Assembly: GCF_000430705.1 (NCBI RefSeq)
Contig: NZ_AUMN01000010.1
Span: forward strand, 62,001-126,000
Reading direction: 5' to 3'
Length of the DNA: 64,000 nucleotides
Source: Arthrobacter castelli DSM 16402
Lineage (GTDB): Bacteria > Actinomycetota > Actinomycetes > Actinomycetales > Micrococcaceae
The position numbers were made by a program, and so were the translations under genes. Position 1 is the stretch's first letter, and each line of letters begins with the position of its first letter. The notes below the pieces were generated by a model. The model ran no database searches. It was not told the origin of the DNA and was given only the letters and a program-made list of their open reading frames with translations. Of this stretch, positions 12,225 to 49,097 are shown one piece after another.

Positions 12225-12883
12225 TGAGTGAGGAAATACACGTACTGATCGTCGACGACGATTTCCACGTGGCGAAGCTGCATGCGACGTATGTGGACTC
12301 CGTCCCGGGATTCAAGCCGCTGAACCCTGTGGGCAGCGCCGAACAAGCGTTGCGGGCGGCCAACACCCAGCACCCGGATCTGGTGCTGTTGGATGTCTAC
12401 CTGCCCGACGCCTTCGGCCTGGACCTGCTTCCGACCCTGGACACCGACGTGCTGATCCTCAGCGCTGCGGCCGAAGCGGCATCGGTACGGCAGGCGTTGC
12501 GCCGCGGCGCGATTGGGTACCTGATCAAGCCATTCACCGCCGAGGATCTGACCCAGCGGTTGCGGGCATACGCGCGGTATCGGCGGATGCTGCCGGGCCA
12601 GCAAACCGTGGATCAGGACACCATCGAGCGGGCAGTGCGGACGCTCAACCCTTCGCAGCCAGGGGGCACCAGCCGGGCGCGATCGGCCACGGAGACTGCG
12701 GTGCTGGAGGCGCTGCAACCCGGCGAGCAGTATTCAACGATGGCCGTGGCCCGGCACATCGGCGTCTCCCGGGCGACGGCGCAACGTTACCTGTCGGCGC
12801 TGGTGGACGACGGCGCAGTGGACATCCAGCTGCGGTACGGCAACACCGGCCGCCCCGAGCACCGTTACACGCTGGCGCAATAG
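12221..12883 (+). CDS. Response regulator, CitB/DcuR family
   Basis: A 220-residue two-domain regulator. The receiver (about 1-125) has the acidic pocket VDDD at 11-14, phosphoacceptor Asp58 in LVLLDVYLPD, and the conserved Lys in GYLIKPF. The C-terminal part has the helix-turn-helix STMAVARHIGVSRATAQRYL (about 165-185), followed by the YGNTGRPEHRY tail typical of the CitB/DpiA branch. The start overlaps the kinase stop by four bases, so the pair is translationally coupled. It most likely activates the tctCBA genes across the divergent promoter region; the inverted repeat at 10148-10185 is a candidate site. Confidence 0.93.
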   Translation: MMSEEIHVLIVDDDFHVAKLHATYVDSVPGFKPLNPVGSAEQALRAANTQHPDLVLLDVYLPDAFGLDLLPTLDTDVLILSAAAEAASVRQALRRGAIGYLIKPFTAEDLTQRLRAYARYRRMLPGQQTVDQDTIERAVRTLNPSQPGGTSRARSATETAVLEALQPGEQYSTMAVARHIGVSRATAQRYLSALVDDGAVDIQLRYGNTGRPEHRYTLAQ

Positions 12884-12972
12884 GCTACGCGTACTGCCAC
12901 GGCGAGGCCCGCTGGCTTGACCGGCTTCACGTTGGCATGAGCGGCTGGTCTGAGAACCGCCTGGGGCCGCAT

Positions 12973-13014
12973 AAAAAGTGGCACCCGCCCCAGAGGAGGG
13001 GGAGCGGGTGCCAC
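12973..13014 (-). terminator. Rho-independent terminator
   Basis: An 11-bp perfect stem GTGGCACCCGC/GCGGGTGCCAC with a 15-base loop is followed on the minus strand by TTTTT. It ends the secreted-protein gene at 13054-13458 and may also serve the convergent response-regulator gene. Confidence 0.85.
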
Positions 13015-13053
13015 ATGTGCAGTCCTGCCGGGCTGCTGTCTTCTTGCGGGTGC

Positions 13054-13458
13054 TTAGAGCAGTCCGCCCAGCAGGGACTCGTTGTTCTCGCCGCGGTCAG
13101 TGCTGCTCTGTGACGAGCTGTCGGCGTCGACGGTGGAGTCCACATCGGGGTTGGCGTTCACCTCAGTGTCATTGCCACTGAGGATGCCGTCCAGATTGTC
13201 GGTCACGGACGTGCCGATGCCGCTGAGCACGTTGTTGCCGCTGGCGACATCACCGACGTCGACTGCATCGTTGAGGATGTTGTCCAGCGAGACGTTGCCG
13301 CTGTCAGCGATGCGGTTGTCGTTGACCTGGTTCGTGGTCTCGTTCATGGTCGACTCGACACTGTCACCGGAATCGGCGCTGGCCATTCCGGCTCCGCCGA
13401 CCAATGCCACACCTGTGACCGCGCTGACTGCCAGAGACTTCGTGAAAAAGTTCCGCAT
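13054..13458 (-). CDS. Small secreted protein of unknown function
   Basis: A 134-residue protein with a clear signal peptide: MRNFFTKSLAVSAVTG, a hydrophobic core, and a likely cleavage after ASA (about residue 28). The mature part is very acidic and rich in Asn, Asp, Ser and Val, with no Cys. It carries spaced SGN/SGI repeats (DSGNVSLDNIL, VASGNNVLSGI, ILSGNDTEVN). I do not recognise a family. The ATG at 13458 is set by a GGAGG box 8 bases upstream. It sits in a surface-protein neighbourhood with a sortase and a CHRD protein, but it has no sorting signal of its own. Confidence 0.75.
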   Translation of the reverse strand: MRNFFTKSLAVSAVTGVALVGGAGMASADSGDSVESTMNETTNQVNDNRIADSGNVSLDNILNDAVDVGDVASGNNVLSGIGTSVTDNLDGILSGNDTEVNANPDVDSTVDADSSSQSSTDRGENNESLLGGLL

Positions 13459-13585
13459 TGTTATTGCCTCCATGATTTTCCTATCGGTGTTTGAAGGACA
13501 TCAGGGGTTCGGTGCGATCCTGTTACCGGATTGGTATGAACCGAAAATTCTTCACCGGGCAAGTGGGCGGGACTGCGAGACAGAG

Positions 13586-14158
13586 TTATGCGGTGTCGAC
13601 CAGCTTGGCGTAGATGACCAGATTCTTCACGAAGTCTCCGGAGGATGCGGTGAATCCGTCGCAGGTGATCAGCCGCAATTCGGCCCCTGGTGTGGGGGAG
13701 TAGACGGCCTTCGTGGGAAAGTCGTTTTTCGGGTAGAGCTCGCTCTTGTATACCTCGAAAATGGCCCGGGTGCCATCTGTGCGGGTGACGCTGATCTGAT
13801 CGCCCTGTTCGAGGGCGTCGAGGTTGTAGAAGACGCCGCTGTCATCGGCGGTGGAGTTGACGTGTCCGAGCAACACCGCCGGGCCCCTCTGGCCTGGGGT
13901 GGGGGAGCCGGTGAACCAGCTGGCCGGGGCTCCCTCGTGCTCGGGTGGAACCTCAAGCGTCCGATCGTCACGCAGGCCGGTTTCGATGATCTTAGAGGTG
14001 CGGTCCAGTGCCCCGATGGTGAGGCTGACCGGTCGGGAGGCGTCCATCGCCGTGCCTGTCGGTTGGCCGGTGCCTTGGCGGTTGAAGCCGGGCTCGGGCG
14101 GCCATCGGGATGGTTGCCGTTTCCTTGATCGGTGGGTCCGCAGCCGGCCAGCAGGCAT
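13586..14158 (-). CDS. Class F sortase, N-terminus probably frameshifted
   Basis: The C-terminal 150 residues are a sortase domain: SRPVSLTIGALD at its start, the catalytic His in VLLGHVNS, and the catalytic Cys in RLITCDG, followed by NLVIYAKL. These enzymes cleave a sorting motif and join surface proteins to the envelope. The N-terminus in this frame (about residues 1-37) is Arg/Pro-rich and unlike a sortase. The overlapping minus-strand frame opening with GTG at 14217 encodes a convincing lipoprotein-type signal (TVLLCLLAGCG) that should precede the domain. A net -1 shift between about 14110 and 14047 would join them. It is therefore a recent pseudogene, a sequencing error, or a gene starting at an internal ATG (14047 or 14158). 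The 5' border is uncertain. Confidence 0.7.
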   Translation of the reverse strand: MPAGRLRTHRSRKRQPSRWPPEPGFNRQGTGQPTGTAMDASRPVSLTIGALDRTSKIIETGLRDDRTLEVPPEHEGAPASWFTGSPTPGQRGPAVLLGHVNSTADDSGVFYNLDALEQGDQISVTRTDGTRAIFEVYKSELYPKNDFPTKAVYSPTPGAELRLITCDGFTASSGDFVKNLVIYAKLVDTA

Positions 14159-14243: not shown

Positions 14244-15020
14244 TTACCGGGCGGCGACCTTGGAGCGGCGGATGGCGTAGCCCGCGCCGGCTGCGGCGAT
14301 CAGACCGCCACCGAGGGCGTACATCCCCATCTCATTGGCACCGCCCTGCTCGGTCGGAGTGACACCGGTGTCAGCGCCGCCAGCGGGCATCATCTGCAGC
14401 GGACCACACAGTGCCGGAGCCGTGGCAGCCAACGGCAGCTTCGCGGCGCCGGGCAGGCCACTCATGGTTTCCGTGGCCGCGGCGGGCTGGTTGGCCGGGT
14501 TCAGACCATGGACCACGGCCACCGCGGTGCCGTTGGCCAGCGCATCCTGGGTCTTCTCGTTCAGCTCGAACGTCTCCTTATAGGTGTAGGAGCTGCCCGA
14601 GGGGGCAACGGTGACGTCCGTGGCCGTCGAAGCGTCCTTGGCCGCGCTTCCGACCGACAGGGTGGTGCCGATCGCGCCGTAGGCCGGCTTGCCCTCGACC
14701 GTGCTGATCACACCGTCACCGTTGGCGTCATCGGCCATCGTCGGGCAGGTGCCCTGCGCGCCGATGTGGATGTGCTGCACGTGCGGGTAAGCGGCATCCT
14801 TGAACGTTTCGGCCAGCCCGGACGTCTCAATGGTCACCGTGGCCTGGCTGCCTTCGACAGTGACCCAGGCTTCACCGGAGGCGCCGCTGCTGTTGACCTG
14901 ATTCAACATGGTCGAGTAGGAGCCCTCGGCATGATCGGCCATCGCCGGGGCCGCTCCCATGGCGGTCAGGCCCAGCGCAACAGCCGGTGCCAGCAGCATT
15001 GTCTTCTTCATCAGTTTCAT
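14244..15020 (-). CDS. CHRD domain-containing surface protein
   Basis: A 258-residue secreted protein. A signal peptide (MKLMKKTMLLAPAVALGLTA..., cleavage near AMA at about 28) is followed by a CHRD domain at about 40-200, with SSGASGEAWVTVEGSQATVT and a histidine-containing core HVQHIHIGAQGTCP. The C-terminus has a hydrophobic helix (GMYALGGGLIAAAGAGYAI) and a basic tail RRSKVAAR, as in sortase substrates, but no LPxTG-type motif is visible before it. The role of CHRD domains in bacteria is not established. The start at 15020 has a GAGGAG box 7 bases upstream. The neighbouring class F sortase is a possible partner. Confidence 0.88.
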   Translation of the reverse strand: MKLMKKTMLLAPAVALGLTAMGAAPAMADHAEGSYSTMLNQVNSSGASGEAWVTVEGSQATVTIETSGLAETFKDAAYPHVQHIHIGAQGTCPTMADDANGDGVISTVEGKPAYGAIGTTLSVGSAAKDASTATDVTVAPSGSSYTYKETFELNEKTQDALANGTAVAVVHGLNPANQPAAATETMSGLPGAAKLPLAATAPALCGPLQMMPAGGADTGVTPTEQGGANEMGMYALGGGLIAAAGAGYAIRRSKVAAR

Positions 15021-15388
15021 CGTCGATCTCCTCATGAGGGATACGTACGAACCCAAATCCTGGGCACGCTACCAGTGCTTCGTCGTGAACCCCGTCACGG
15101 ATGGGTCAGAAAACCAAAAACTTCCGTCACTTTGAGTATCACCGGTCACGACCCTGCCACAGGCAGGGCGCCAGCGGAACACCAAGCCCACTGATTGTTA
15201 TTCGCCTGTGATACCTGCCGGATAGTCCGTGAGGTTGTTGAGCCCGCCGAAACCACTGATGTTCGGGTGGGCAAGGCCGGATCACAACAATTCAATCTGC
15301 ATTGTCCGGCTTATGGAACAAGCCTGGGGTGTCGTCGGAACGGCCAGCGTCTACTGTGCCGGTGAATGGTTCCTGTCATGATGAGTCC
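15021..15388. other. Intergenic region between divergent genes
   Basis: A 368-base geneless stretch between the CHRD gene (minus) and the SRPBCC-epimerase gene (plus). It should hold both promoters. I see no convincing ORF, RNA gene or strong hairpin in it. Confidence 0.6.
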
Positions 15389-16915
15389 ATGGCTGTCTTC
15401 GAGTACCGCACGAGCCTCCCGCATCCGCGGGCGGATGTCTTTGCCTGGTTTGCGCGTCCGGGGGCGCTGCAACGGCTCAGCCCGCCGTTCTCGGGCAGCG
15501 TGCGTCGCGAGCCCGACGCCGGGATCGAGGCAGGGTCGACGGCGCAGATCAGTGTCGGCGCGCCCGGGAAGCTGGGGCTTGGCCTGTCGGGGGTCGCAGG
15601 AACCATCGCGTCGGCGGTGGGCAGGCCAGGCGTCGTCCGCCCCGAACTGCCTTGGACGGCCCGGCATGTCGACCACGATCCGGGCCGGTCTTTCACCGAC
15701 GTCATGGCCGTTGGACCCCTGCGTCGATGGAAGCACGTCCACATCTTCGACGACCATGAACTGAGGTCCGGCGAGACCGGCACCGTCATGACCGACAGGG
15801 TCGATTATGAGCTGCCGTTGGTCTCGCGGCTACGCGAGTCCGGAGTGGGACGGCGGCTGAGCGGGTGGATACGGGACAGGTTCGCCGACGAGATGGACAG
15901 GATCTTCCGCTACCGCGAACGGCAGCTGCTCGGCGACCTGCACTTTCACGCCGCCCATCCCGGTCCGGCGCTCACCGTCGCCGTCGCCGGTGCTTCGGGC
16001 GCCGTCGGCACGCAAGTGTGTGCGCTGTTGGCCGGCGGTGGACACCATGTGATCCGACTCGTGCGACGGCCTGCACGGTCCGACGATGAGGTCGAATGGG
16101 ATCCTGCCTCCGGGTGGCTGGATCCATCACAGCTGGCGGCCTGTGACACCGTCGTCAACGTCTCCGGCTCGCCGTTGGGCCGGTTCACCGAGACCAATAA
16201 GAAGCGCATGTATGCCAGCCGCGTGACGGGAACGGCCCTGCTCGTCGATGCTCTTGCGGCGCTCTCGGCAGACGGACGCGAACGCACGCTCGTGAACGCC
16301 TCCGCCATCGGCTACTACGGCGCCGACCCGCATGCGGCAGGACCGTTATCCGGGCCGCAGTCGAGGGCCGAGCCGCTGAGCGAGGACGCGCCGGCCGGGG
16401 ATGACTTCATGGCCCGGCTCTGCCGAGACTGGGAAGCCGCCTGCGCGCCGGCCGAACGGGCCGGTGTGCGGGTGGTCAAAGTGCGCACGGGGATCAGCCA
16501 GTGCCCGGGCGGGATGATGCTGCAGCGATTCCTGCCGCTGTATGTGGCCGGGGTGGGAGGCCCGCTCGGAGCCGGCCAGTGGCACAGCTGGATCAGCCTC
16601 GACGACCTGGCCGGGATTTACGCTCATTCCGTGCTCGATGCGCGGGTGTCGGGATCAGTCAACGCCGTCGCCCCGGTGCCGGTCACCGCCAGGGAATACG
16701 CGAACACGCTGGGCCGGGTGTTGAACCGGCCCTCAGCCGTTCCGGTTCCGGGTGTGGGCCCGAAGTTGCTGCTTGGGCCCGAGGGCGCCCGCGAGCTGGC
16801 GGCCGCGGACCAGCGGGTCTCGTCGGCGAAAATCGAGGCGGCTGGCTACGAATTCCGCCACCGCAGCCTCGAGCCTGCCCTGCGCCACGTTCTCGGACGC
16901 AGCCCACAAGATTAG
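15389..16915 (+). CDS. TIGR01777-family epimerase with N-terminal SRPBCC domain
   Basis: A 508-residue fusion. Residues 1-150 are a SRPBCC/START-like ligand-binding domain (FEYRTSLPHPRADVFAWF; TDRVDYELPL). Residues 190-500 are an extended SDR of the YfcH/TIGR01777 type, with cofactor loop VAVAGASGAVGTQV, VNASAIGYYG around the active-site Tyr, and a C-terminal DUF1731 segment (SSAKIEAAGYEFRHRSLEPAL). Fusions in this order are common in actinobacteria. The cofactor is probably NADP(H) and the substrate is unknown. The ATG at 15389 is preferred because the domain starts there. A CATGAT hexamer 6 bases upstream could be a -10 box of a leaderless transcript. Confidence 0.9.
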   Translation: MAVFEYRTSLPHPRADVFAWFARPGALQRLSPPFSGSVRREPDAGIEAGSTAQISVGAPGKLGLGLSGVAGTIASAVGRPGVVRPELPWTARHVDHDPGRSFTDVMAVGPLRRWKHVHIFDDHELRSGETGTVMTDRVDYELPLVSRLRESGVGRRLSGWIRDRFADEMDRIFRYRERQLLGDLHFHAAHPGPALTVAVAGASGAVGTQVCALLAGGGHHVIRLVRRPARSDDEVEWDPASGWLDPSQLAACDTVVNVSGSPLGRFTETNKKRMYASRVTGTALLVDALAALSADGRERTLVNASAIGYYGADPHAAGPLSGPQSRAEPLSEDAPAGDDFMARLCRDWEAACAPAERAGVRVVKVRTGISQCPGGMMLQRFLPLYVAGVGGPLGAGQWHSWISLDDLAGIYAHSVLDARVSGSVNAVAPVPVTAREYANTLGRVLNRPSAVPVPGVGPKLLLGPEGARELAAADQRVSSAKIEAAGYEFRHRSLEPALRHVLGRSPQD

Positions 16916-40912: not shown

Positions 40913-42010
40913 TTAGACGGCGGCAAGTGAGTTACTCAAAACCCTGACGACCGCTTCGGTAACCTGCTCGGTGCTGGCTGTGCCGCCGACGTCGCGCGTG
41001 AGGTGGCCGGAGGCGGTCGCCGACTCAATTGCCGACTCGACTCGTCGTGCCTCGTTGTGCAGGCCAAAGTGATCGAGCATCAGAGCGGCACTGGCGATGG
41101 CTCCGGTGGGATTGCTGATTCCTTTACCAGCGATGTCTGGGGCGGAACCGTGAACTGGTTCGAACATCGAGGGGAAATGGTGGTCCGGGTTGAGATTCGC
41201 ACTGGCGGCCAAGCCGAGGCTGCCTGCCATTGCGGATCCGAGGTCCGAGAGGATGTCTGCGTTGAGGTTGGAGGCCACAACTACCGAGAGATCGTCGGGG
41301 TGGAGTACGAACTTGGCGCTCATAGCATCGACAAGCACGCTTTCCGTTTGTACGTCAGGGTAGTCCGAGGCCACCCTGGCGAAGACTTCATCCCACAACA
41401 CCATGCCGTACTGCTGGGCGTTGGACTTGGTGACGCTGGAAACCTTCTTCACGGTCCGGGTGCGCGCAAGGTCAAAGGCGAAACGGATGATACGTTCGCA
41501 GCCTTTTTCGGTGAAGAGCGAGGATTGGATGGCAACTTCGTTGCCTGGACCGCGGCCGGAGAGGTTTCGTCCGCCGAGGCCCGCGTACTCGCCTTCGCTG
41601 TTCTCGCGGACCACAACCCAGTCGAGCTCCGTCTGGTCTGCTTTACGCAGTGGAGACTCCACGCCCGGCAGGAACTTCACCGGCCGGATATTTGCCCACT
41701 GATCGAAGTTCTGGGTGATATTCAGGCGCAGGCCCCAAAGGCTGATGTGATCGGGAACGTTCTCCCATCCGACCGCACCGAAATAGATGGCGTCGAACGA
41801 CTTCAAGGCCTCCAAGCCATCGGGGGCCATCATGACGCCATGCTCGGTGTAATACTGCGAACCCCATGGAAACTCTGTCCAGTCGAAGGAGAACTTGCCT
41901 GCGGACTGTTCGGCCACCACGTCCATAACCCGGCGGCCTGCTGCGATGACTTCCTTGCCCACGCCATCGGCGGGAATTGAAGCGATTCTGAAAACCTGGT
42001 GCTCACCCAT
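40913..42010 (-). CDS. Tartrate/D-malate dehydrogenase family protein
   Basis: A 365-residue beta-decarboxylating dehydrogenase of the isocitrate/isopropylmalate superfamily. VVRENSEGEYAGLGGR (about 135-150) and EPVHGSAPDIAGKGISNPTG (about 283-302) match the TtuC/DmlA branch, as does SLWGLRLNITQNFDQWANIRP. It oxidises tartrate or D-malate with NAD and Mn2+. The two substrates are not separable by sequence alone. The ATG at 42010 has AAGGAGAG 7 bases upstream. It lies next to a LysR regulator and near a GntP permease, a pattern like dmlR-dmlA or tartrate loci. Confidence 0.9.
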   Translation of the reverse strand: MGEHQVFRIASIPADGVGKEVIAAGRRVMDVVAEQSAGKFSFDWTEFPWGSQYYTEHGVMMAPDGLEALKSFDAIYFGAVGWENVPDHISLWGLRLNITQNFDQWANIRPVKFLPGVESPLRKADQTELDWVVVRENSEGEYAGLGGRNLSGRGPGNEVAIQSSLFTEKGCERIIRFAFDLARTRTVKKVSSVTKSNAQQYGMVLWDEVFARVASDYPDVQTESVLVDAMSAKFVLHPDDLSVVVASNLNADILSDLGSAMAGSLGLAASANLNPDHHFPSMFEPVHGSAPDIAGKGISNPTGAIASAALMLDHFGLHNEARRVESAIESATASGHLTRDVGGTASTEQVTEAVVRVLSNSLAAV

Positions 42011-42127
42011 TGTGGCGCTCTCCTTTCTACCCGGTGCCCGCATCGGATTGCGGTGTCTTGTTCCAGTAGAGCGTCTATCCATCCATAAGGTCCAAGACCG
42101 GAATCATATTCGGAACATAGGTATTGC

Positions 42128-43030
42128 CTATGAAGGCCGAGTCCATGCTGCTGTACTTCCGGCAGACGCTTCCAGAAAAGCGCGGGCCGCCGGCGTGAGG
42201 TGGGTGGGCCGGCTGAGAAGTGCTATATGCAGCACGGTCACTGGCTCGATGCGCGCTACGCGCAGCCCCATTTGCCGGGCCAGCGGGGACCACGACGACG
42301 GCAGAACCGCATGGCCGACTCCAGCAAGTACCAGCGGAAGCACTGAGGTTCGGTGCGCGACCTCCGCGGCGATCTCGACCTGCACACCATTTGCCAGCGT
42401 GTCGTCAATCAGCCATCGCATCAGCGAACCCCGCTGAGAGACCACGACGCGGTGTTCCTCAAGGTCTTCCCGCCGAACAGACTCACCGGCACGGAAGGTG
42501 TCCGCCATCGGATTGACGACCAATACCAAGGGCTGTTCCTCGAGGTGCATTACATCAACTTCGGCGGACCGGAAAGGGCGGTCGGAACCCAAGATCCCAA
42601 TTTCGGTACTTCCGGAACGCACAGCTTCAGTCACCTCATCGGTCGTGAACGCCGCTTCAACGTTGACGGTCACTGAGGGGTGCGTTTTCGCGTACGTGGC
42701 AATCATTGACGTCAATGGTTCGATTCCAGGCGACGGCATTGCGACCACGTCCAACCGTCCACTGCGAACTCCGCGTAGCTCATCAACGGCTGTCCTCGCC
42801 GTGTCGAGGTCGCGAATGAGAACACGAGCCGGCCCCACGAGCTTTTGGCCAGCTTCACTGAGGACCACTTGACGGCCAATGCGGTGGAACAGGGGGATCT
42901 TGAGGTCGCGCTCAAGTCCCTTGATGGTTTGCGACAGCGAGGGCTGTGCAACGAGCAGATGTTCCGCAGCACGGGTGAATCCGCCATGATCGACCACTGC
43001 TAGGAAATATTTCAGCTGCCGTATATCCAC
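42128..43030 (-). CDS. LysR family transcriptional regulator
   Basis: A 300-residue regulator. The N-terminal winged helix (1-60) carries LKYFLAVVDHGGFTRAAEHLLVAQPSLSQTIKGLE-type LysR sequence, with the recognition helix around 30-48. The effector domain (about 90-290) has RSGRLDVVAMPSPGIEPL. It lies upstream of the dehydrogenase on the same strand and is divergent from the leader ORF/GntP unit, so it probably responds to the transported hydroxy acid. The GTG start is used; a GGGAT box lies 7 bases upstream. Confidence 0.92.
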   Translation of the reverse strand: MDIRQLKYFLAVVDHGGFTRAAEHLLVAQPSLSQTIKGLERDLKIPLFHRIGRQVVLSEAGQKLVGPARVLIRDLDTARTAVDELRGVRSGRLDVVAMPSPGIEPLTSMIATYAKTHPSVTVNVEAAFTTDEVTEAVRSGSTEIGILGSDRPFRSAEVDVMHLEEQPLVLVVNPMADTFRAGESVRREDLEEHRVVVSQRGSLMRWLIDDTLANGVQVEIAAEVAHRTSVLPLVLAGVGHAVLPSSWSPLARQMGLRVARIEPVTVLHIALLSRPTHLTPAARAFLEASAGSTAAWTRPS

Positions 43031-43278
43031 GATTGCTATCCCGTCTTACGAATCAGACATAGTTTGAGGCGCCAACAGCACGGCTGCTTTAGTCACCGTG
43101 GGACCTCGAAGTCGGGCCTGCCCCGGGGCAAACAGGGCCACAGCACAGTGTCTTCCTCCTGCTGCGTCCGAACAGACCCATTGATTTTGCCTATGCGAGT
43201 AGTAGATAACAAGCCTTGGACATGATGCAAATCACCAATGCATTGTTGGTTGAACCCGACAACGAAAGGACCAGGAGT

Positions 43279-43365
43279 ATGCAAACCCAGCAAGCCACCC
43301 GCACTGGCCACCGACGTACCCGGTTGCACATCGACGCGGGTATCCACCTCTCAGGCGGTGCCTGA
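43279..43365 (+). CDS. 28-residue leader ORF upstream of the GntP permease
   Basis: An ATG with AAAGGA 8 bases upstream opens a 28-codon frame, MQTQQATRTGHRRTRLHIDA and eight more residues. Its stop TGA (43363-43365) overlaps the permease ATG as TGATG. The permease itself has no good ribosome-binding site, so its translation probably depends on ribosomes finishing this ORF. The peptide is basic (five Arg, three His) with no hydrophobic segment, so it is not a signal or membrane peptide. It may be purely a coupling device, or a regulatory leader. Confidence 0.6.
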   Translation: MQTQQATRTGHRRTRLHIDAGIHLSGGA

Positions 43366-44861
43366 TGGGATGGGATCTGAGTGACTTTGGTGTCATAGCG
43401 TCAGCCGTTTTAACGATCCTTGGAATCGTCTTCCTGATTCTTAGATTGAAGGTCGATCCCGTCATAGCCCTCGTCGTAGGGTCGCTGGCACTTGTGCTGG
43501 TCAATGGGCTTGGGCCCGAAGCGGCTATTGAAGCCGTCATCACCGGTTTCGGCGACCTAATGCTTGAAATTGGCCTCGTTATTGGGTTCGGCGTTCTAAC
43601 CGGCACGCTCCTGTCATATATGGGTGCTATTCAAAAGCTCGGAGCCTTGCTCCTGAGGAAATTTGGCCCACGTGCTATGCCGTACGCCTTCGGCGTCACG
43701 ATCGGCACTGTCCTGGCGTCGCTGTTTATCGACGTTTGTCTAGTCATGACCGCGCCGCTCGCCAAAGCAACTTCCTCAAAAATTGGTAAGGACGGGCTCG
43801 CTCGAATGGCCGCGGCGGTCATGATCGGTCTTGAAGTCGCCCTGACCATGACGATACCGGGCGTGGTGGCGTTGGCGCTGTCGGGAATTCTGGATGTTCC
43901 AGTAGGCATCATGCTGATATTTGGGGTGCCGACGGCCGTTCTTACAATCGTTTCCTCCATCTTCATCATGAACGTGCTGTTCCGGATGGGCTTTTGGAAA
44001 CCAGAGCTGGATGAGTCTGCAGCCGTCGCTAAAGTGCAGGCGGCCGAGCAACGTGCAGATCAGCTGGATCCAGTGGAACGCTCTGTCGAAATCGAGGCCT
44101 CCTCCGAAGCAGGTGCAGGAGACAGGGGAGAGTTCGCGGGCAGCGCGCATATGACCGCTACAGCCACCGAGGCGCCTGAAGGTGGTGGCACCGCGATCAC
44201 CTTGGATGAAGCACGGCAGCCTGGACTGATCGTGGCGTTCGCTCCGTTGATAGTGGCGCTTCTCCTTATATCCGGCGGCGCAATCGCTGACGTTGCGGGG
44301 GTCGAATCACCTGTTCTGACTTTGTTTAGCAATCCCACAGTTGCCTTGCTTGTTGCCCTGATTGGTGCCTGGATTGTTTGCCGCTTCCACGCCGGGCACG
44401 TCGCAACAGGTCAGGCTCTGTCTCGTGGCTTTCAGGAAAGCGGCCAGATTCTGCTGATCACCGGCGTCGGAGGTTGTCTCGCCGCTGCGGTCGAGACCAT
44501 CGGTATAGGCGATATCCTCACCCAATACTTTGAGCCGGGGAGCTTTGCCCCCTTGATCCTGGTCTGGATTATCGCGGCGATTCTACATATCGCCATCGGG
44601 TCCGTGACCACAGCCGCAATCACAGCCGCAGGAATACTTGCGCCCTTCGCCGATTCGCTCGATGCCAATCCGGTTCTCATCGCCTTGGCAGCTGCCTCCG
44701 GCGGCATGTTCATTATCCATGTCACCAGCAATACCTTCTGGCTGATGAAAACACTGTTTGGTCTCAGTACCCGAGGCGCTTTCAAGACGGATACCGTAGC
44801 CGTCTCTATCGCCTCCGTGATGGGGCTCGTCTGGGTGCTGGTTCTGAGCCTGTTCATCTAG
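43365..44861 (+). CDS. GntP family permease
   Basis: A 498-residue transporter with about 12-13 helices. GFGVLTGTLLSYMGAIQKLG and IGSVTTAAITAAGILAPF match GntP-type gluconate/hydroxy-acid:H+ symporters. A hydrophilic acidic linker (about 215-285) splits the two halves and contains an in-frame EQRADQLDPVERSVEIEAS stretch. The neighbouring dehydrogenase points to tartrate or D-malate rather than gluconate. Start by TGATG overlap with the leader ORF. Base use here is less GC-rich than in flanking genes, suggesting possible acquisition of this island. Confidence 0.9.
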   Translation: MGWDLSDFGVIASAVLTILGIVFLILRLKVDPVIALVVGSLALVLVNGLGPEAAIEAVITGFGDLMLEIGLVIGFGVLTGTLLSYMGAIQKLGALLLRKFGPRAMPYAFGVTIGTVLASLFIDVCLVMTAPLAKATSSKIGKDGLARMAAAVMIGLEVALTMTIPGVVALALSGILDVPVGIMLIFGVPTAVLTIVSSIFIMNVLFRMGFWKPELDESAAVAKVQAAEQRADQLDPVERSVEIEASSEAGAGDRGEFAGSAHMTATATEAPEGGGTAITLDEARQPGLIVAFAPLIVALLLISGGAIADVAGVESPVLTLFSNPTVALLVALIGAWIVCRFHAGHVATGQALSRGFQESGQILLITGVGGCLAAAVETIGIGDILTQYFEPGSFAPLILVWIIAAILHIAIGSVTTAAITAAGILAPFADSLDANPVLIALAAASGGMFIIHVTSNTFWLMKTLFGLSTRGAFKTDTVAVSIASVMGLVWVLVLSLFI

Positions 44862-47217: not shown

Positions 47218-49029
47218 TCAGTCGCGGATTCTCACCGCCGTCTCCCGCATGTACTGGTCCACCCGGGTATAGGCATCCCGGGTCAGCGCCTTCCACAGGG
47301 CCACGGCCAGCCGTGGATGCTCCGACTCCAGCTGTTCGATCGCCTCGCCGCTGAGCACCTTCAGCCTCACCGGCCCGACGGCCTTGACCGTTGTCTCCTG
47401 CTTGTCATTGGTTCCGAGCGCGAGCTCGCCGAAGGTCATGCCGGCGCCCAGGGTACTGAGTTTGACCCTGCCTTCGGGGGCCGGGATGGTGCTGGTGACC
47501 TTGCCCGAAACGATGAAATGCACGCCGCCGAAACGCTGCCCGACGCGGCGGATGACGTCGCCGGCGTCGTACTCCCTGGCCTCCAACAGCGACTCAAGCT
47601 GCTCAATATCGGCGCCGTCCAGCGGTTCCAGCGCCGGGCTGTCAGCCACCGGCACGATCGAGGGCAGCGAGAGTTCCTCACCATAGCGGCCGATCAATTC
47701 GTTCTCCGCCCATTCGACGGCTGTGCTGCGGGTGACAAACGTTGGCACTTCACGGTCCAGATTGTGGAACGTCTCGGCCAGCGTCCCCTCTCCATCGATC
47801 AGTGCCAGCTGGTTGCCGGCATCCGAGAGCGTTTGGCGGACCTCACTGAGCATCCGCAGCGACACATCCGAAGTCTCATCCACCCGCCGCAGGTCCAGCA
47901 CCACAAGTTCGACGTCGTCAGCCAGGTTGCTGATCTCGCGCACCATGGATTCTGTGCCGGCAAAGAGCAGGTCGCCATGCAGCTCGATCACCGCCGCCCG
48001 GTGCCCGTGTTCCTCCAGGACGGCCGCGGCCTCATCGGTGCGGCGGATCCCGGAAGGAACGCGGTTGATGTCGTAGCGGGCCCGGATCACCGACCGGCCG
48101 GTACGCCCGGCCCGCACGAAGTGCAGTTCCATGTCCCGCGAGACCCGTTGGCAGGTGGCGATGCCGCGGACACTTGAGCCATGTTCATCCAGCGGCGGCG
48201 AGTAGACCGCCAGCCCGACCTGGCCCGGCAGCACGGCGAGCGTCCCGCCGCCGACGCCGCTCTTGGCGGGCATGCCGACGTTGGCAACCCAGGCGCCGGC
48301 GTCGTCGTACATGCCGCAGGTGGTCATCACCGAGAGGACACGTTCGACCTCGGAAATATCGAGCACCTGGTCGCCCGTGACCGGATTCCGTCCGCCGTTG
48401 GCCAGGGACGCGGCCATCATGGACAAGTCCTGGCAGTTGACGTTGACCGAGCACTGGCGGAAGTAATCCTCCACCACCGGATCCGGATCTTTCTCGATGA
48501 TGTTGAACGATCGCAGCAGGTACGACAGCGCGCGGTTGCGGTACCCGTGGTTGTACTCGGACTTGTAGACGCGCTCATCCACCGTGAGGTCGCGGCCGGC
48601 GAAAGACGAATGGATGTTGAGGATCCGCTTGAATCGCGAGTTGGGACCGGAGCTCTTCACCAGCGATGTGGCAGTGATCGCGCCGGCATTGATCATCGGG
48701 TTGGACGGCCGGCCGGTGCCTTCACCCAGGGAGATCTCGTTGAACGCATCGCCGGAGGGCTCGACGTCGATCTTCCGGTCGACCGCCTCCATCCCGCGGT
48801 CGGCCAGGGCCAGCCCATAGGTGAACGGCTTGGAGATCGACTGGATGGTGAACTCCTCGCGGGTGTCGCCCACTTCGTAGACGTAGCCATCGACCGTGGC
48901 GAGGCAGATCCCATAGTTGTCCGGATCGACGTGTGCCAGGGCCGGAATGGCGCTGGAGGGCTTACCGTCACGCAGCTGCTGTATTTCGGCGTGGATCTTC
49001 TCGAGGTAGCTCTGGATGGGCGATTCCAT
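47218..49029 (-). CDS. glsA: Glutaminase with C-terminal STAS and cyclic nucleotide-binding domains
   Basis: A 603-residue fusion. Residues 1-305 are a serine-dependent beta-lactamase-fold glutaminase: SISK holds catalytic Ser64 and Lys67, and YNHGYRNRALSYLLR, GGRNPVTGDQVL and KSGVGGGTLAVLPGQ are family motifs. It hydrolyses glutamine to glutamate and ammonia. Residues about 335-430 are a STAS domain (VIELHGDLLFAGTE; LVVLDLRRVDETSDVSL), and about 470-590 a cNMP-binding fold (DVIRRVGQRFGGVHFIVSGK; GAGMTFGELALG). Plain glutaminases are about 310 residues. The appended domains suggest allosteric or regulatory control. TAGTGT 7 bases before the ATG suggests a leaderless mRNA; an in-frame GTG at 49038 is an alternative start. 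Confidence 0.92.
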   Translation of the reverse strand: MESPIQSYLEKIHAEIQQLRDGKPSSAIPALAHVDPDNYGICLATVDGYVYEVGDTREEFTIQSISKPFTYGLALADRGMEAVDRKIDVEPSGDAFNEISLGEGTGRPSNPMINAGAITATSLVKSSGPNSRFKRILNIHSSFAGRDLTVDERVYKSEYNHGYRNRALSYLLRSFNIIEKDPDPVVEDYFRQCSVNVNCQDLSMMAASLANGGRNPVTGDQVLDISEVERVLSVMTTCGMYDDAGAWVANVGMPAKSGVGGGTLAVLPGQVGLAVYSPPLDEHGSSVRGIATCQRVSRDMELHFVRAGRTGRSVIRARYDINRVPSGIRRTDEAAAVLEEHGHRAAVIELHGDLLFAGTESMVREISNLADDVELVVLDLRRVDETSDVSLRMLSEVRQTLSDAGNQLALIDGEGTLAETFHNLDREVPTFVTRSTAVEWAENELIGRYGEELSLPSIVPVADSPALEPLDGADIEQLESLLEAREYDAGDVIRRVGQRFGGVHFIVSGKVTSTIPAPEGRVKLSTLGAGMTFGELALGTNDKQETTVKAVGPVRLKVLSGEAIEQLESEHPRLAVALWKALTRDAYTRVDQYMRETAVRIRD

Positions 49030-49097
49030 GGAAGCCACACTAGATGGAATGCGCCCCGAAGTGATCCAGGTGGCGCCCGGCGTCGTCCTGTCGCCCG

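Follow-up and report, generated by a model that had tools for sequence, protein, structure and literature searches.

How does a permease gene come to lie behind a short open reading frame that ends on the permease start codon itself, and does that frame serve the translation of the permease? The question is raised by a 64,000-nucleotide stretch of Arthrobacter castelli DSM 16402 DNA (the window, to which coordinates refer unless a locus is named), in which a 28-codon leader ORF on the forward strand, MQTQQATRTGHRRTRLHIDAGIHLSGGA, runs from an ATG at 43279 to a TGA at 43363-43365 and there overlaps the ATG of a gene encoding a GntP-family permease. The features of the locus are collected in Table 1.

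Table 1. Features of the leader-permease locus, in window coordinates
Feature	Position	Strand	Basis
Tartrate dehydrogenase-family gene (TDH)	40913..42010	-	TIGR02089, 506.9 bits against a cut-off of 470.4
LysR-type regulator gene, divergent from the permease	42128..43030	-	PF00126 and PF03466
Regulatory block, apparently inherited from DASS; putative promoter/operator	43176..43262	+	DNA homology from 43176
Leader ribosome-binding site, apparently inherited from DASS	43264..43277	+	AAGGACCAGGA common to G227, G309, G182, G244 and G123; -9.5 kcal/mol
28-codon leader ORF, almost certainly a remnant of DASS codons 1-28	43279..43365	+	Aligns with DASS N-termini without gaps
Hairpin predicted to cover the start codon and SD (43353-43358) of GntP	43345..43372	+	-13.2 kcal/mol
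TGATG stop/start overlap of leader TGA and GntP ATG	43363..43367	+	
GntP-family permease gene, the putative replacing gene	43365..44861	+	PF02447, 200.4 bits; 64% identical to G163
CTG codon at the usual GntP homolog start	43377..43379	+	ATG or GTG in 33/34 anchored homologs

Upstream of the leader ATG lies GAAAGGACCAGGAGT, with a computed anti-SD duplex energy of -9.5 kcal/mol, and the leader start is predicted in its wider context to be accessible (opening cost 8.4 kcal/mol, 16th percentile among genes). The first-pass annotation had described a 28-codon ORF with a well-placed ribosome-binding site and a TGA overlapping the permease ATG, and in both respects its description was borne out. 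The hexamer coding score of the leader is 2.0, an ambiguous value that is at least reached by the first 28 codons of 84% of genes and by 14% of open intergenic windows beginning with a start codon. The layout of ORF and overlapping stop is not in itself informative. From a crude set of 782 genes, drawn from 864 kb of the 4.59-Mb genome (64% G+C in this sample), we took the 387 genes whose upstream DNA is free for 100 nt or more and counted ATG upstream ORFs of at least 20 codons that have an SD of -9.5 or stronger and whose stop overlaps the start of the gene; one was observed, and the mean of 60 dinucleotide-shuffle rounds was 0.98. The stop/start layout by itself thus occurs at chance frequency, about one being expected per such sample, and a chance ORF is excluded only by the homology described below. 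Unrelated ATG frames also overlap candidate starts at some GntP loci (for instance 24 codons in L005 and 12 in L033), a further sign that little can be read from the layout by itself. Two overlapping frames were noted in passing on the minus strand of L093 (G000:C5): in the region of about 12672-14153, a gene of 494 residues has its start overlapped by a 22-codon GTG frame (VCVAVIWLYLIDPENKRKGDDS), whose product presumably resembles small transporter subunits; in the region of about 14501-15967, an 11-codon ATG frame, MANGELEGRRA, has a strong SD (-10.7) and overlaps a gene start.

The origin of the leader was traced through its DNA. Searching 395 family genomes with 43200-43400 (E <= 0.01) gave matches in 13 non-self genomes, five of which were inspected (G227, G309, G123, G182 and L116), the remaining matches, eight in number and about 22-43 nt long, being taken as chance uninspected. 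The best matches, in G227 (78%) and G309 (75%), and the weaker ones in G123 and G182 all fall at the 5' end of a gene for a DASS permease; the match in L116 lies in an unrelated gene. The G227 protein is a sodium-coupled anion symporter of the DASS family (TIGR00785, 265.5 bits against 198.6; PF00939). At the DNA level the window matches these loci across TDH and LysR (about 40946 to 43044, 73-77% identity). A second stretch of similarity opens at about 43176, and from there to 43315 the window is 72-77% identical to the sequence upstream of DASS, to its ribosome-binding site and to its initial codons; this second stretch extends to 43315 in G309, 43296 in G227 and 43276 in G123, and the window sequence ATGCAAACCCAGCAA corresponds to GTGCAAACCCAGCAA in both G227 and G309.

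Farther into the leader the correspondence is kept codon by codon. No gap is needed to align the peptide with residues 1-28 of DASS, and 11 of the 28 leader residues are identical to those of G309 (MQTQQPVSTGPDSAPGRTDVRAALLGGK), the GTG start being counted as Met. Over codons 6-27, in register, 35 of 66 bases match G309 and 33 of 66 match G227, against a shuffle mean of about 20.5; no shuffle in 5000 reached the former value and two in 5000 the latter, and other registers gave at most 31 (G309) and 28 (G227) bases. Past the GntP junction the match falls to 18 and 19 of 60 bases, and there the homology stops; these junction statistics come from G227 and G309, two of the eight aligned DASS loci. 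Of RTDVRAALLGGK, which hardly varies among the eight aligned DASS proteins, the leader retains just D, L and GG; part of the likeness of the eight in this stretch is, however, a product of the method, since their N-termini were located by a pattern that takes RTDV and ALLGG as given. A start region that is kept while the peptide drifts is what would be expected if ribosome loading alone matters.

The leader therefore has homologous upstream DNA, a ribosome-binding site and a start at an orthologous locus, and colinear in-frame codons up to the junction. This homology, together with the gapless alignment and its end at the junction, makes it almost certain that the leader is what survives, as a fossil or stump, of the 5' end of a displaced DASS permease gene. 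A 3' remnant of DASS downstream of GntP was not found in the window by tblastn or blastn; displacement does not require one, though its presence would have confirmed displacement. No close DASS relative was found in the source genome or in its congener G001, the best being 33% and 32% identical respectively. What the first-pass annotation called a small gene of the kind missed in annotation is present as an ORF, but the label of gene fits it less well than that of a stump left by another gene.

The neighbouring genes, which are concerned with organic acids, were compared with those of relatives. TDH (its 42010 start being the choice of a crude gene finder) is 83-88% identical, and LysR 68-80% identical, in G227, G309 and G123, and the same TDH-LysR pair stands beside a divergent DASS gene in these three and in four further genomes (7 loci). 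In a LysR survey, 34 of 265 family genomes gave hits at E <= 1e-80, and 30 loci, the window included, could be classified by what lies within 1.5 kb beyond LysR, a distance past which a DASS gene would escape. TDH adjoins LysR in 28 of the 30. Beyond LysR there is a divergent DASS gene in 6, a same-strand DASS gene in 1, GntP in 1 (the window) and neither within 1.5 kb in 22; G309, from the other sample, raises the divergent DASS loci to 7. The exchange of DASS for GntP is thus seen in one genome only, that of the window. G182 (L120, 6376-9083, + strand) carries another arrangement of the same functions, in which LysR is absent and the gene after DASS, on its strand, is a TDH only 52% identical to that of the window. 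Elsewhere in the window, at 47218-49038 on the minus strand, glutaminase, STAS and cyclic-nucleotide-binding domains are fused in one 606-residue ORF.

The DNA ahead of the leader appears to have come down from the DASS locus as well. The pattern CATTG.TTT..CCTAT, which was written from the same alignments on which it was counted, is present at all 7 of the 30 classified loci that have either a divergent DASS gene or the window GntP gene, and at none of the remaining 23. Promoter activity would reside in this inherited block. A promoter scan of the locus found no consensus sigma-70 promoter, and the sole TANNNT in 43031-43364, at 43060, lies outside the block. A palindrome is present at 43230-43251, within the coordinates of the block.

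GntP relatives, by comparison, lack the leader. It is absent from all 52 GntP-family loci that could be inspected (59 were given and 7 skipped, the aligned part beginning too late), and at E <= 0.01 its DNA matched GntP loci over 21 nt in L037 and 15 nt in L045, with no others. A search of 59 genomes with the leader peptide gave a best non-self E of 0.03, and peptide-pattern scans of named genomes found no relative. The codon-level conservation across orthologous permease loci to which the first-pass annotation had looked is accordingly missing; what the leader matches is the 5' end of another permease gene, that of DASS. Among the relatives compared, the closest GntP (G163, 64% identical) comes after a TDH and a LysR that are only 51% and 39% identical to those of the window, which marks a different type of locus. 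Motifs like CATTATGAG and CATAATATGGG recur upstream of many family GntP homologs (L003, L005 and L034-L056, in other genomes), and the SDs of the MSD-x-x-LINTAV group of homologs are weak, with duplex energies of about -4.5 to -6.2.

Where the window GntP gene starts is constrained by its own sequence. The ATG at 43365 is the first ATG, GTG or TTG of the permease frame, with none farther upstream. Thirty-seven GntP loci were given for comparison of starts, of which 35 could be anchored; excluding the window leaves 34, and the position at which they begin corresponds to codon 5 of the window GntP, a CTG, the sole exception being L007, which starts four codons later. Lacking the usual start codon, the window gene must use ATG 43365 or the CTG. 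The ATG is preceded by the SD-like sequence AGGCGGTG, in which AGGCGG ends 6 nt before it. The hairpin predicted here has a core, UCAGGC-GGU-GCCUGA at 43351-43365, with additional outer pairs, that would cover the SD and the A of the GntP ATG. Over 31 nt it folds at -13.2 kcal/mol, an energy equalled by 11 of 200 shuffles, and a 141-nt fold does not differ from its shuffles (z 0.00). The predicted hairpin would sequester the downstream SD in the manner of ORF27-iraD (see below), and less strongly in the wider context.

We propose that, at a conserved tartrate/malate-type locus comprising TDH, LysR and a divergent permease, the DASS gene was replaced by GntP with a junction near 43358-43368, and that what was left of DASS is its regulatory block, its ribosome-binding site, its start codon and its first 28 codons, still in frame. 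Ribosomes would load at the inherited DASS start, translate the 28 codons and stop at the TGA within TGATG; the leader ribosome would open the hairpin that buries the GntP SD and ATG, and would either re-initiate at ATG 43365 or let another ribosome start there. The inherited start signals of the leader probably still bring ribosomes to GntP, and the leader peptide itself probably has no function. Given the origin of the leader as a DASS stump, coupling is quite likely the mode of GntP translation; the whole explanation, in which DASS was displaced and its remnant start region feeds GntP by coupling, we regard as likely. Coupling was one of the two actions that the first-pass annotation allowed the leader, and it draws support from sequence features: the inherited start signals, the stop/start overlap and an SD within a predicted hairpin.

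The DASS fossil could instead be idle, GntP initiating directly at ATG 43365 by means of AGGCGGTG and any translation of the leader being incidental. The permease had been said to lack a good ribosome-binding site of its own, a statement that does not hold: at -9.5 its SD equals that of the leader and ranks in the strongest third of genes (31% reach that energy), though it lies within the predicted hairpin. In the wider context, moreover, opening the GntP start would cost 18.2 kcal/mol, a value reached by 100 of 780 genes, which places it in the upper 13% and is not extreme. Against an idle leader, a local structure as strong as that over the GntP SD and start codon is predicted for only 10 of 778 genes, GntP itself among them, and the frame has stayed open for 28 codons to end exactly at the GntP start codon. 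We consider an idle fossil unlikely.

It is decidedly improbable that GntP starts at CTG 43377, the leader and TGATG then being incidental. This is the homologous position, where 33 of the 34 anchored homologs begin, and the bases before it give a duplex energy of -7.8, but an in-frame ATG lies four codons upstream and CTG start codons are rare.

Still less probable is the other action allowed by the first-pass annotation, attenuation, in which ribosomes stalling at Arg, His or Thr codons of the leader would control GntP. It shares with coupling the stop/start layout in its favour, but no residue of the peptide occurs more than twice in succession, there is no codon run for a sensed amino acid, and the four Arg codons (CGC, CGA, CGT and CGG) all differ. 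The terminator scan found no terminator-like site and Rfam gave no match at the leader region; the neighbouring genes point to an organic-acid pathway, and the peptide body, derived from DASS, has diverged from its ancestor where the start region is conserved. That an assembly chimera fused a DASS start to GntP is scarcely credible, since, for all that the genome is a draft of 49 contigs and the junction is known from the assembly alone, the remnant already differs from DASS at about half of the bases of codons 6-27 and the source genome holds no close DASS gene from which it could have come.

Translational coupling through a displaced stump, the explanation that we prefer, has relatives among described systems. 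In Escherichia coli, a 27-residue ORF27 with its own SD is reported to have a stop overlapping the start of iraD, whose SD is sequestered by RNA structure, and loss of the ORF27 start lowers iraD expression (PMC5574718). The leader resembles ORF27, as described there, in being a short ORF with its own SD and a stop/start overlap, the structure over the downstream SD being predicted in the present case. It differs in that ORF27 is controlled by CsrA, no such regulator being known for the leader, whose coupling to GntP is a proposal and which appears to be the stump of another gene. Expression of Mycobacterium tuberculosis PPE2 likewise is reported to depend on uPPE2, an upstream ORF whose stop overlaps the downstream gene start, mainly by termination-reinitiation (PMC11260477); the overlap given for that pair is AUGA rather than TGATG, and uPPE2 is tied to a B12 riboswitch, whereas no Rfam element is found at the leader. 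According to a review, MIRU elements create coupled short ORFs in mycobacteria, and models of RNA unfolding, of reinitiation and of ribosome-delivering short ORFs have been described (PMC12548453). MIRU is a mobile repeat that inserts at a start codon, whereas in the window a resident gene would have been displaced and its start retained. Strict coupling was reported for 13 of 14 overlapping pairs tested (PMC6728339). By analogy with such systems, each step of the proposed mechanism has precedents.

Gene displacement in situ is reportedly known from operons, where a conserved cluster exchanges one of its genes for another of similar role and keeps the neighbours. The present locus would conform to this in that DASS gave way to GntP while TDH and LysR stayed, and would depart from it in that the start region of the displaced gene has stayed and apparently serves the incoming gene. 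The class of mechanism is therefore known, and what is new is an upstream ORF whose origin can be traced to a displaced gene; among the literature titles and abstract openings consulted, no description of a leader ORF arising in this way was found.

Bacterial leader ORFs have been found in large numbers and their origin is seldom traceable; here it can be followed base by base. Tentatively, and with somewhat less than even confidence, we suggest a route by which upstream ORFs arise, in which the stump of a displaced gene serves as a translated landing strip and a newcomer without a start of its own depends wholly on re-initiation. If this is true, other coupled leader ORFs may also be stumps of displaced genes, an idea that can be tested at scale by comparing leader ORFs with gene N-termini at orthologous loci. 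The case also cautions against assuming a functional peptide wherever a leader ORF has a good start, and it would show how an incoming gene can come under an existing regulator and an existing translation start.
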